64,000 bases of DNA from Thomasclavelia ramosa DSM 1402 (lineage in GTDB: Bacteria > Bacillota_I > Bacilli_A > Erysipelotrichales > Coprobacillaceae): contig NZ_CP036346.1 of NCBI RefSeq assembly GCF_014131695.1, positions 2,356,001 through 2,420,000 on the forward strand, written 5' to 3'. The translations under genes and the position numbers were made by a program. The notes beneath the pieces were generated by a model. It did not search any database. It saw nothing but the letters and a program-made list of their open reading frames with translations, and had not been told where the DNA came from. Positions 2,436 to 11,581 of the stretch are shown here, in pieces (within the stretch, counting starts at the first letter, position 1; every line of letters begins with the position of its first letter).

Positions 2436-2665
2436 TAAAAAATCGCCTCTTAAACAAGAGACGATTTAACCGCGTTACCACTCTATTTATCATAAGTTGA
2501 CCCTATGATCTCTTTCATCGTTAAGGGTGATTACCCGAAAGCGATACTACTATTTCCCACTTTCCTCTCATAAATGCGCTTCATCCTAACTAGATTACCA
2601 GCCTTCCACCAACGCCAGCTCGCTAAAACCATTATTAAGACTACTCTTTTAGTCACCGAGTTTGG
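2436..2665 (-). promoter_or_regulatory. T-box leader, probable arginine specifier (CGC)
   Basis: On the minus strand the region carries the T-box core AGAGTGGTAACGCG (2471-2484), which base-pairs with an uncharged tRNA 3' end, then a terminator stem (AAATCGTCTC... / ...GAGGCGATTT with a T run, 2438-2467). Stem I hallmarks are present: GAGTAG, GCGTTGGTGGAAGGC, and the GAA that precedes the specifier loop. Using the usual GAA-N-XXX-purine spacing, the specifier is CGC (2576-2578), an arginine codon, which fits the argC gene below it. The specifier call is inference; the T-box itself is clear. Confidence 0.92.
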
Positions 2666-7835: not shown

Positions 7836-9215
7836 ATGAATTTATGGGGTGGACGATTCACTAAACCAACCGATCAGCTAGTTTATGATTTCAATGCATC
7901 AATTAGCTTTGATCAAACTTTTTATACCCAAGATATCCAAGGAAGTATTGCTCATGTCAAAATGCTAGCAAAACAAGGGATTTTAACAAGTGCTGAAGGA
8001 ACTGAAATTGAAACTGCTCTAAATCAAATATTAGAAGACCTTAATACTGGTAAATTAACGATTGATAATAGTCAAGAAGATATTCACAGTTTCGTTGAAT
8101 CTACTTTAATTGAACGAATTGGTAACACTGGTAAAAAGTTACATACTGGAAGAAGCCGTAATGACCAAGTTGCACTCGATATGCGTTTATATACACGCGA
8201 TCAAGTTGTTATATTAAATACTTTAATTCATAATCTATTAATAACGATTAATGATATAATGAAAACTCATATTGAAACAATCATGCCTGGTTTCACACAT
8301 TTACAAAAAGCTCAACCAATTACATTAGCACACCATCTCGGAGCTTATTTTGAAATGTTTAAACGTGATAGCAGCCGATTAGAAGATATTTATAAACGAA
8401 TGAATATCTGCCCATTAGGTTCTGGGGCTCTAGCAGGTACTACCTACCCATTAGATCGCGAATATACTGCTGAACTATTAGGTTTTGATGGACCTTGCTT
8501 AAATAGTATTGATGGGGTAAGTGATCGTGATTATTTGATTGAACTATTAAGTGCTATGGCTACAATGATGATGCATATGTCAAGAATCAGTGAAGAAATT
8601 ATTATTTGGAATACTAATGAATACCAATTCGTCGATTTAGATGACACTTATTCAACTGGCTCTTCAATTATGCCACAAAAAAAGAACCCTGATATCGCTG
8701 AATTAATTAGAGGAAAAACAGGTCGAGTATATGGAGCTTTAACTAGTTTATTAACTACGATGAAAGGTATTCCTCTTGCTTACAATAAAGACATGCAGGA
8801 AGATAAAGAACTTGTCTTTGATGCACTCACAACGACTAAAGGCTGCTTACAATTATTAGACGGAATGTTAAAATCAACAACATTTAATAAAGATAAAATG
8901 CGTAAATCTGCTACTGGTGGATTTACTAATGCTACTGATGCAGCAGACTATTTAGTCAATAAAGGGGTCCCATTTAGAGATGCTCATGGAATTATTGGGC
9001 AGCTAGTCCTATATGCAATTGATCAAAATAAAGATCTTGATGACCTAACAATTGCTGAATTTAAAGCCATTTCAGAGGTTTTTGATGATGATATTTATGA
9101 TGCTATCAACGTTGAAACTTGCGTTAATAAGCGTAATACTATCGGTGCACCTGGTATAACGGCAATGAAACAGGTTATTGCCTTAAATGAAAAATATTTA
9201 GCACAATTTAAATAG
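7836..9215 (+). CDS. argH: Argininosuccinate lyase
   Basis: ArgH splits argininosuccinate into arginine and fumarate, the last step of arginine synthesis. The 459-residue protein carries the superfamily signature [12 protein letters not shown], the helix [10 protein letters not shown] and the catalytic histidine region [12 protein letters not shown]. An AGGAGG site lies seven bases before the ATG. It is the second gene after argG and is closed by a strong terminator. Confidence 0.97.
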
Positions 9216-9244
9216 TACTAGCAGCTGCTAGTACTATTTTTTTA
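9211..9244 (+). terminator. Terminator of argGH
   Basis: A perfect 14-base-pair palindrome centred on AGCAGCTGCT (AATAGTACTAGC / GCTAGTACTATT) overlaps the argH stop and is followed by seven T. Confidence 0.92.
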
Positions 9245-9299
9245 TCCCCCTCTTTTTAAGTGATGTCTCAAAAAATTATTATCTCGGGGATTATCAAGA

Positions 9300-9695
9300 C
9301 TATCTTTTTTTTGCCCACTTTTTAAAATTAATGTCTAAATATTTATTTAATGCTACTGGATCTTTAGTTCGATATAATTCAATCAATCCATATCGATCAT
9401 TTAGCCTTATCTGCTTTTTCTGCAAATAATCGAACATCTTTACAACTTGACTATTGTTTAATATTTGAAAAGAATAAACATCATAATCAGTACGGACATC
9501 TATATCAATATAATAATTTAAAAACACTCTTAGTAATGTAATTTCATATAAAACACTACACATTGAAATATTGAAATCAATAATTTCATTAATAGGAATA
9601 ACTAGATTATTATATTTAATTTCTTCATTATTAAAAAATAAGGTATCACGGTCGATCCATTGTTTAAGTGATTCGTTATTAAAAGAAATTTTCAC
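9300..9695 (-). CDS. Hypothetical protein, possibly the C-terminal part of the broken MerR gene
   Basis: A 131-residue frame opening with GTG at 9695 and no convincing ribosome binding site. The sequence is a mix of short strands and helices with a basic end (KKWAKKR) and matches no family I recognise. It begins 11 bases after the stop of a frameshifted MerR-type regulator on the same strand and in a different frame, so it may be that regulator's effector-binding domain stranded by another frameshift. It could also be an independent downstream gene. Confidence 0.4.
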   Translation of the reverse strand: MKISFNNESLKQWIDRDTLFFNNEEIKYNNLVIPINEIIDFNISMCSVLYEITLLRVFLNYYIDIDVRTDYDVYSFQILNNSQVVKMFDYLQKKQIRLNDRYGLIELYRTKDPVALNKYLDINFKKWAKKR

Positions 9696-9705
9696 CTATC
9701 TACGT

Positions 9706-10006
9706 TTATTTTAATTGTTTATTTTTTTCAATATCTTCTAATTGAATTTTTGTATTTTCAATAAACTCTTTTTTGTTTTTAAAGCATCTCTAATTGAAAA
9801 TTGATTATTTAAGATTAATTTTATTTCATCAATCGATATTTCCATCGACCGGAGCAATAAAATCAATTCTAAAATATCAAGTTCTTTTTTAAATAATTAT
9901 GATAATTATTACTATTCCTCTGAGGTGTAATAAAACCCTCTTTTTCATAATAAATAAGTGTCTGTTTTGCTATTCCCAACATCTCTTCAATTTCATGTGT
10001 TGTCAT
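9706..10006 (-). pseudogene. MerR-family regulator, frameshifted
   Basis: From an ATG at 10006 behind AAAGGAG, the frame gives a MerR DNA-binding opening (EIEEMLGIAKQTLIYYEKEG) but stops after about 45 codons. Shifting frame at a run of A restores ELDILELILLLRSMEISID and IKLILNNQFSIRDAL, the usual second half of the MerR DNA-binding domain. A second shift at another A run restores EFIENTKIQLEDIEKNKQLK, the linker coiled coil. Both lesions are at A-rich runs, so sequencing error cannot be excluded. The promoter in front keeps the MerR-type 19-base spacer. Confidence 0.75.
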
Positions 10007-10029
10007 ACTATCACTCCTTTTTCAATTAT

Positions 10030-10060
10030 ATTAAACACTATATTCTTAGTATACAGTCAA
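10030..10060 (-). promoter_or_regulatory. MerR-type promoter with 19-base spacer
   Basis: TTGACT (10055-10060) and TTTAAT (10030-10035) on the minus strand are 19 bases apart, with an imperfect dyad across the spacer (GTATACT ... ATATAGTG). Long-spacer promoters with a central dyad are the hallmark of MerR-family autoregulation. Confidence 0.55.
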
Positions 10061-10070
10061 GAATAATTAA

Positions 10071-10097
10071 AATAAAAGAACAGCATTAATGCTATTC
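10071..10097 (-). terminator. Terminator of the HTH-PurM gene
   Basis: The stem GAATAGCATT / AATGCTGTTC, read on the minus strand, is followed by TTTTATTTT directly after the stop codon at 10099. Confidence 0.75.
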
Positions 10098-10098
10098 T

Positions 10099-11346
10099 TT
10101 ATAACCAGTTTAATTTATTTTCAAATTCCACTTTATCTTGGCCATTTTCAATTACACCAATTTCATAACAAGGATAGTACTCTGAAAGATGTTCCATGAC
10201 TTGCCTTTTATCCTGTTGACTTACAACAACATTGAAACCAACCCCACAGTTAAATGTATTTAGCATCTCCTTATCATCAATATTACCACGATGTTTTATA
10301 TATTTAAAAATTGGCAAAATATTAATCTTTGCTAAATCAATTTTAGCTGTTAAACCATCGGGAATAACTCGACATAAATTTCCTTCAATTCCACCACCAG
10401 TGATATGTGCCATACCGTGAATCGATACCTTCGTAAACAATCCTTTTAATGCTTGATAATATGGTGTGTGTGGTTTCATAATTTGTTCAATAAATGTTTC
10501 ATTCATGATTCGTTCTAATTTAATTTGAGGATATTTATCCATTAACATTCTAACTAAAGAATAGCCATTTGTATGAAGACCATTTGAAGCAATTGCAAGT
10601 ATAACATCCCCAGCACTAATTTTGGAACCATCAATTACCTTGTCCTTTGCAACTATTCCAGCAATACTTGATGTTAAGACATAAACACCATGTTCAACAA
10701 CTTGAGGTTGAATTGATGTTTCTCCACCCACTAATGAGCATTCATTATTTTGACATGCTTGCGAAATTCCTTTCACCAATGAGGCAATCGTTTCTTTTTC
10801 AGCATTACCACAAACAATCGTATCTAATACCGCTAAGGGCTTTGCTCCCATAACAACAATATCATTAACCAAATGATTAATCATATCATGACAAATCGAT
10901 TCACTATATCCATATTCCATCGCTAGTTTTTGTTTTGAACCTGGTTCCTCCGATTTAAGAACTAAAACGGGATGTTTAATATCTGAAAATGAAATATCAT
11001 ATAAAGAAGCAAACGGTCCTAACCCATTTAAGACCCGTGGATCACTAGTTTTTAAATATTGTTTCATTTCTCTTTTTATGGCATCACTATATGCAATATC
11101 TACCCCTGCCTTACTATATGATAATCCCTCTAGTTCTTTTTCTACACCTGCTAATAATTCATCAACAGTAATCTCTAGTAATGCGGCCAAATCTGATAAT
11201 ATCTCAACATTAGGCAAACCGCCATTTTCCCATTTTGAAACAGCCTGGAAAGAAACAGATAGTTTATTAGCCAATTGTTGTTGAGTTAAACCTTTTTCTT
11301 TACGTTTTAAAGTAATGAATTCACCTACTTTATTTACATTGATCAT
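10099..11346 (-). CDS. XRE-type HTH fused to a PurM (AIR synthase)-like domain
   Basis: The 415-residue protein begins with a Cro/C1 helix-turn-helix (residues about 4-60: FITLKRKEKGLTQQQLANKL, FQAVSKWENG). It continues as a full-length PurM-like module from about residue 85: YSKAGVDI, NGLGPFASLYD, VNDIVVMGAKPLAVLD, GGETS, ASNGLHTNGYSLVR, AHITGGGI and FNCGVGF all match aminoimidazole ribonucleotide synthetase blocks. The usual nucleotide loop GVGTK reads EEPGSKQK, so catalysis is doubtful. The ATG at 11346 has AAGGTGG in front; a longer frame to 11379 lacks one. It may be a transcription factor that senses a purine intermediate. It is divergent from the VanRS-like pair. Confidence 0.82.
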   Translation of the reverse strand: MINVNKVGEFITLKRKEKGLTQQQLANKLSVSFQAVSKWENGGLPNVEILSDLAALLEITVDELLAGVEKELEGLSYSKAGVDIAYSDAIKREMKQYLKTSDPRVLNGLGPFASLYDISFSDIKHPVLVLKSEEPGSKQKLAMEYGYSESICHDMINHLVNDIVVMGAKPLAVLDTIVCGNAEKETIASLVKGISQACQNNECSLVGGETSIQPQVVEHGVYVLTSSIAGIVAKDKVIDGSKISAGDVILAIASNGLHTNGYSLVRMLMDKYPQIKLERIMNETFIEQIMKPHTPYYQALKGLFTKVSIHGMAHITGGGIEGNLCRVIPDGLTAKIDLAKINILPIFKYIKHRGNIDDKEMLNTFNCGVGFNVVVSQQDKRQVMEHLSEYYPCYEIGVIENGQDKVEFENKLNWL

Positions 11347-11581
11347 ATTTATACCACCTTTCTCTTTAATTATAAACATTAATATTAAATAAAAAAATAA
11401 TCTTGCATTTGAGTTATCCCTTATAATTCAACTCTTAGTTGAAACAAAATCTTATCACTATATCTTACTAATCAATAAAAATTATTAAACTAAAAACCTA
11501 ATTCTTACGATTTTCTTAAATATTGGTGTTTAAATTGTTTTTTAAGACAAAATAAGCTAAGATGATTTTTGAGGTGATAAT

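Follow-up and report, generated by a model that had tools for sequence, protein, structure and literature searches.

A helix-turn-helix–PurM fusion of Thomasclavelia ramosa that may sense a purine-pathway molecule and switch its own gene

BzdR joins an XRE DNA-binding domain to a shikimate-kinase-like, enzyme-derived ligand domain, and the available part of its description proposes loss of enzyme activity as a step on the way to a regulator (PMC3602430). Trigger enzymes such as BirA, NadR and PutA likewise combine an enzyme module with a DNA-binding domain and have few targets (PMC8249747, in the portion available), and autoregulatory XRE regulators carry an XRE domain and have a palindrome before their own gene (PMC12565409, in the portion available). 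Here we describe a protein of the gut bacterium Thomasclavelia ramosa DSM 1402 in which an XRE-type helix-turn-helix (HTH) domain precedes a module of the AIR synthetase PurM. Its C-terminal fold differs from that of BzdR (AIRS/AIRS_C, with the shikimate-kinase-like domain absent), and whereas BzdR controls benzoate genes according to the available text, the only site found for the fusion lies at its own promoter. It belongs to a different enzyme family from the trigger enzymes, and its catalysis is putative although the architecture fits; unlike the autoregulatory XRE regulators, as far as the available text describes them, it has a PurM ligand domain and a composite two-part site. The simplest account of the fusion is a self-regulating, enzyme-derived switch with the ligand site of PurM, which would work like BzdR or a trigger enzyme. 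Among the papers listed in our literature searches, none dealt with an HTH–PurM protein or with a bacterial regulator whose ligand module is a PurM, and the regulators named in the available parts of the related literature include none that senses FGAM.

The gene lies in a 64,000-nt stretch of the T. ramosa chromosome (contig NZ_CP036346.1, positions 2,356,001 to 2,420,000), which we call the window; coordinates are window positions unless a locus is named. The open reading frame runs from 11379 to 10099 on the minus strand and encodes 426 aa from the first ATG. In relatives the second Met is the start, which gives 11346–10099 (minus strand, 415 aa) as the likely gene, in agreement with the coordinates in an earlier note on this DNA. 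Residues are numbered on the 426-aa ORF. The features of the gene are as follows:

10099..11346, minus strand: gene of the HTH–PurM fusion, counted from the conserved Met (415 aa); the ORF itself reaches 11379
11155..11307, minus strand: XRE/Cro-type HTH_3 domain, ORF residues 25–75
10144..11121, minus strand: AIR synthetase-type (PurM) module spanning residues 87–412, TIGR00878
10927..10950, minus strand: EEPGSKQK loop in place of the DGVGTK loop, residues 144–151; signature of the EE-type PurM clade
10711..10713, minus strand: Ile223, at the position of E. coli PurM Glu144; altered in every fusion and in no comparison PurM
10381..10383, minus strand: Gly333, at the position of E. coli PurM Glu255; every fusion has Gly here, every comparison PurM an acid

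Both domains scored above their profile cut-offs. HTH_3 reached 52.1 bits against a Pfam cut-off of 23, which places the N-terminal domain in the XRE/HTH_3 family; AIRS and AIRS_C both exceeded their Pfam cut-offs, and the purM equivalog TIGR00878 scored 281.4 bits against 236.35. AIR synthetases were the nearest solved sequences and folds, and the whole fold and most proposed active-site residues are like those of E. coli PurM (PDB 1CLI). The PurM blocks GGETS, GLHTNGYSLV and AHITGGGI are all present, as the earlier note had read them, and its description of a DNA-binding domain joined to a full-length PurM module is borne out by the profile scores and by 82 full-length orthologues. The AlphaFold model, made with 20 similar sequences, was weak (mean pLDDT 65 over the N-terminal half of the PurM module), and we therefore make no claim about active-site geometry.

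A collection scan gave 160 encoding relatives, and the best 80 of these were all full-length fusions from assemblies labelled mostly Clostridia. Together with one genome of the same family as T. ramosa (G010), they are about 68–77% identical to the window fusion. Because all 82 orthologues, the window protein included, are full-length fusions, the HTH–PurM architecture is far beyond chance. A search of 40 genomes (that of T. ramosa and 39 relatives) found a full-length copy at 71% identity in one relative (G010) and 40–42% versions in two genomes of the same genus (G005 and G008); the remaining strong matches listed were canonical PurMs or HTH domains alone. The exact DNA pattern for EEPGSKQK hit 2 genomes among the 116 searched in the order of Blautia parvula, and the centre genome itself is one of them. 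The gene is thus sparse and probably moves horizontally. We discarded a phage or plasmid origin: tblastn found no close copy in the plasmid and phage collections, and the matches listed (20 of 63 and 20 of 197 records) were all below 60% identity and included no HTH–PurM fusion.

The T. ramosa genome (3.25 Mb, one contig) holds a second AIRS-family match, a canonical purM of 341 aa between a purN-like ORF and purC-/purE-like ORFs, the purC being confirmed by PF01259. Compared with an ordinary purM, the fusion is thus an extra gene in a genome with a normal purM, and it stands alone outside the pur cluster. The separate gene that the earlier note had looked for is therefore present, and the situation which that note had said would count against its reading, the fusion being the only purM, does not hold. 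We checked 32 fusion genomes with TIGR00878, 30 with the main type and two (G005, G008) with a divergent type. A canonical purM above 420 bits was present in 24 of them, and six others (G050, G057, G059, G060, G061 and G064) had instead a weaker-scoring PurM type of 391–407 aa, viewed in full for G060, so that 30 of 32 carry another PurM-type gene. In the other two (G047, G065) the fusion was the only PurM found, and a re-check agreed; these are metagenome assemblies, in which a missing purM may be an assembly gap. Both have purC, adjoined by purF- and purB-like ORFs named by eye.

We compared PurM residues, in E. coli numbering, across 82 fusions (the T. ramosa locus, G010 and 80 Clostridia loci, with the divergent L005 and L006 left out) and 32 comparison PurMs (27 canonical and 5 HTH-less). 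Residues 143–151 of the window fusion read SEEPGSKQK at the place of the GTDGVGTK-like loop, with Asp→Glu, Gly→Glu and Thr→Ser and with Gly and Lys kept. Relative to E. coli PurM, the protein has the N-terminal HTH, Asp65→Glu, Gly66→Glu, Thr69→Ser, Glu144→Ile, Ser191→Thr and Glu255→Gly. The available portions of two PurM papers propose His190, Asp65, Asp94 and His247 (PMC3261824) and Asp94, His247, Thr249 and Arg259 (PMC5919458) as active-site residues. Five of these six are identical in all 82 fusions, and the sixth, D65, is Glu in 82/82 and likewise in 5/5 HTH-less relatives; G66 is also Glu in every fusion. The equivalents of D86, D94, H190, N192, H247, T249 and R259 are all unchanged in 82/82. 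Glu144, present in 32/32 comparison PurMs, is Ile in 81 fusions and Val in one, and is the only position common to canonical and HTH-less PurMs that the fusions have lost outright. Glu255 is Gly in all 82, against Glu in 27/27 canonical PurMs and Glu or Asp in 5/5 HTH-less ones. We found no role given for Glu144 or Glu255 in the literature consulted, and the structural model is too weak to locate them. The absence of two universal acids from every fusion argues against ordinary AIR synthesis.

The loop itself marks a PurM clade. A search of 291 genomes of the class of Blautia yielded a first HTH-less relative (G264); a DNA pattern then matched 11 of 398 genomes of the phylum, four of them PurM-like and G264 among these, and a family search added G238. 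All five proteins carry the EEPGSKQ loop, lack an HTH and are 45–51% identical to the PurM part of the fusion:

L184:7773-8819: HTH-less EE-type PurM, sole PurM of its genome
L185:8323-9363: HTH-less EE-type PurM, sole PurM of its genome
L186:8740-9819: HTH-less EE-type PurM, sole PurM of its genome
L149:6631-7731: HTH-less EE-type PurM, sole PurM of its genome
L187:3208-4479: HTH-less EE-type PurM, sole PurM of its genome

None of the five genomes has another purM above the cut-off, and all five have purC. The EE-type copy of G238 is interrupted by an insert, and its pieces score below the cut-off. In G499, one of the five, a cluster without purM contains purE, a purB-like gene (292 bits, below the 326 cut-off), purF, purN, purC and purD; purL and purQ-like matches lie elsewhere, and no purH was seen, in the 1.34 of about 2.2 Mb inspected. 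As the sole PurM beside a near-complete purine pathway, the EE-type protein very likely serves G499 as AIR synthetase, as judged from gene content. A tree separates canonical PurMs from every EE-type protein at 99/99; the grouping of the fusions reaches only 64/59, and the HTH-less proteins fall into two groups. We met no description of an HTH-less EE-type PurM in our literature search. Next to the one at L149, positions 7979-10560 encode a glycyl-radical enzyme (PFL-like plus Gly_radical) and an activase-like ORF named by eye. A loop shared with HTH-less relatives that are the only PurM of their genomes is not the mark of a dead enzyme. The earlier note had taken the swapped loop as a sign of a decommissioned or altered domain; the loop does not support decommissioning, and the signs of an altered enzyme are found instead in Glu144→Ile/Val and Glu255→Gly.

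A conserved palindrome lies upstream of the fusion gene, within 11347–11581, the very region that the earlier note had named for a DNA pull-down. It belongs to a longer element, TCAAC-N5-GTTGA-N11-AAAYTC-N9-GTTATTG, whose end lies some 50 nt upstream of the start codon in most loci. A palindrome before its own gene is the arrangement expected, at the level of sequence, of an XRE regulator. The promoter features are:

11427..11443, minus strand: perfect palindrome TTCAAC-N5-GTTGAA, candidate operator
11395..11442, minus strand: composite 48-nt element (palindrome half-sites, AAAYTC and GTTATTG), 3 mismatches here
11369..11374, minus strand: TATAAT, a likely –10 box that follows the composite element by 20 nt

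Of 84 upstream regions, 77 matched the composite element with at most 5 mismatches over 23 scored positions (30 perfectly), against 0/1680 base-shuffled controls. This comparison counts the element in the sequences from which it was derived, and simple shuffling does not take away their relatedness. The seven without it at this threshold were L065, L070, L073, L087, L095, L005 and L006. Among the 77 matches the fixed letters were 64–100% conserved (most >90%) and the intervening letters far less. The best –10-like hexamer fell 20–21 nt past the element end in 64/77, and the element therefore spans the –35 region. At ≤3 mismatches it occurred once per genome in 13/16 genomes, T. ramosa included, each time just upstream of the fusion; it was absent at that threshold from G005 and G008 (divergent type) and from G047, and a reversed-pattern control gave no match. 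Three further copies of the exact palindrome exist in the T. ramosa genome: two fall within ORFs and the third separates two ORFs, with no clear link.

The surroundings of the gene offer no partner. Across 82 loci, no gene family keeps a fixed position next to the fusion; the most frequent neighbours, ABC transporters, appear in 20/82 at scattered positions, and we rejected a conserved operon partner. A same-strand downstream neighbour lies within 60 nt in 12/81 loci. With no fixed neighbour and few close downstream genes, the likeliest output would be the fusion's own product. Elsewhere in the window, the interval from the fusion gene to a 131-aa ORF at 9300-9695 (minus strand, no Pfam match) contains a frameshifted MerR-like regulator remnant, recognized by eye, at 9690-10070 (minus strand), which starts MTTHEIEEMLGIAKQTLIYYEKEG and continues in another frame. 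The only Rfam match in the window is a T-box leader at 2454-2665 (minus strand, 126 bits).

More divergent HTH–PurMs were also found. The protein at L152:5597-6919 (minus strand) has lost D65, D94, H190, N192, H247, T249 and R259; it is preceded by the palindrome with 2 mismatches and GGTTATTG, and it heads a run of same-strand genes for an AraC-type regulator and two ABC transporters. The main fusion is present in this genome as well. L006 has D65Q, N192Y and H247N, and the stretch L006:1510-4242 comprises this divergent gene and, close behind it, HAD-like and PTS-permease-like ORFs recognized by eye. Upstream of both L005 and L006 is a symmetrically changed palindrome, TTCAAT-N5-ATTGAA. The sites of L005/L006 and L152 fail the strict composite threshold.

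We modestly favor the reading that the fusion is an autoregulated, enzyme-derived one-gene switch with a PurM-type ligand site. The second PurM-like protein of this gut bacterium would then probably sense a purine-pathway molecule and switch its own gene. The XRE domain, most likely as a dimer, would bind the two-part operator in the fusion gene's own promoter; the PurM module would most likely bind FGAM or a closely similar phosphoribosyl compound, together with ATP; and the bound ligand would alter the affinity for DNA, with expression of the gene following a build-up of the ligand. The sequences show that the fusion exists and how widely it is spread, that a separate purM is present, that the conserved site is restricted to the fusion's own promoter, and which residues are kept or lost; DNA binding, repression and the ligand are inferred, as is whether the module still turns over substrate. 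The switch reading draws on the 82 full-length orthologues, the element at the gene's own promoter, the catalytic candidates kept in 82/82, and the related sites upstream of the more divergent HTH–PurMs (L005/L006, L152). Counting against it, the sole detectable target is its own gene, which is unusual unless the protein's activity is the output; the two lost acids, the seven upstream regions without the element, its counting in the sequences that defined it and the weak structural model also weigh on that side.

One alternative is a working second AIR synthetase, a backup isozyme whose HTH just sets its own level. The TIGR00878 score above cut-off fits this, as do the same-loop HTH-less relatives that are the only PurM in 5/5 genomes, all with purC (one with purE, B, F, N, C and D and purL and Q besides), and the two genomes, G047 and G065, that show purC with purF-/purB-like ORFs beside it and no other purM. 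We nevertheless consider it rather unlikely: Glu144 and Glu255 are lost in every fusion but acidic in 32/32 other PurMs, another PurM-type gene accompanies the fusion in 30/32 genomes, and the two exceptions are the metagenome assemblies. A transcription factor for other purine genes, sensing FGAM, AIR or ATP as the earlier note had proposed, would agree with the domain architecture and the separate canonical purM. Operators at purine genes would be expected of such a repressor, but in the 13/13 genomes having it the composite site stands solely before the fusion, palindrome-only genome scans gave no consistent second target among the loci examined gene by gene, and the site is absent from the upstream stretches of purE, purM and HTH-less PurMs that we checked. 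The protein does carry the DNA-binding domain that this proposal requires, but no tie to other purine genes was found, and we judge this explanation improbable. In a further alternative, another regulator would bind the element, with the HTH serving dimerization or some other role. Yet the element accompanies the gene across Clostridia and as far as the T. ramosa lineage, and the divergent L005/L006 proteins pair with a symmetrically changed palindrome, which makes this the least probable of the explanations.

Tentatively, and with less assurance than for the switch itself, the family may be a record of an enzyme becoming a transcription factor, from an HTH-less sole AIR synthetase, through a self-regulating fusion minus two acids, to HTH-keeping descendants that lack the catalytic site, have a related operator and head other operons (L152, L006), the sensed molecule being FGAM or a related phosphoribosyl intermediate. 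The purM model score alone would annotate the fusion as an AIR synthetase, a warning for annotation. With a sole enzyme, a self-regulated fusion and a degenerate regulator side by side, the family allows the transition from enzyme to regulator to be studied directly by experiment. If FGAM is what it senses, the fusion would serve as a natural purine-intermediate sensor.
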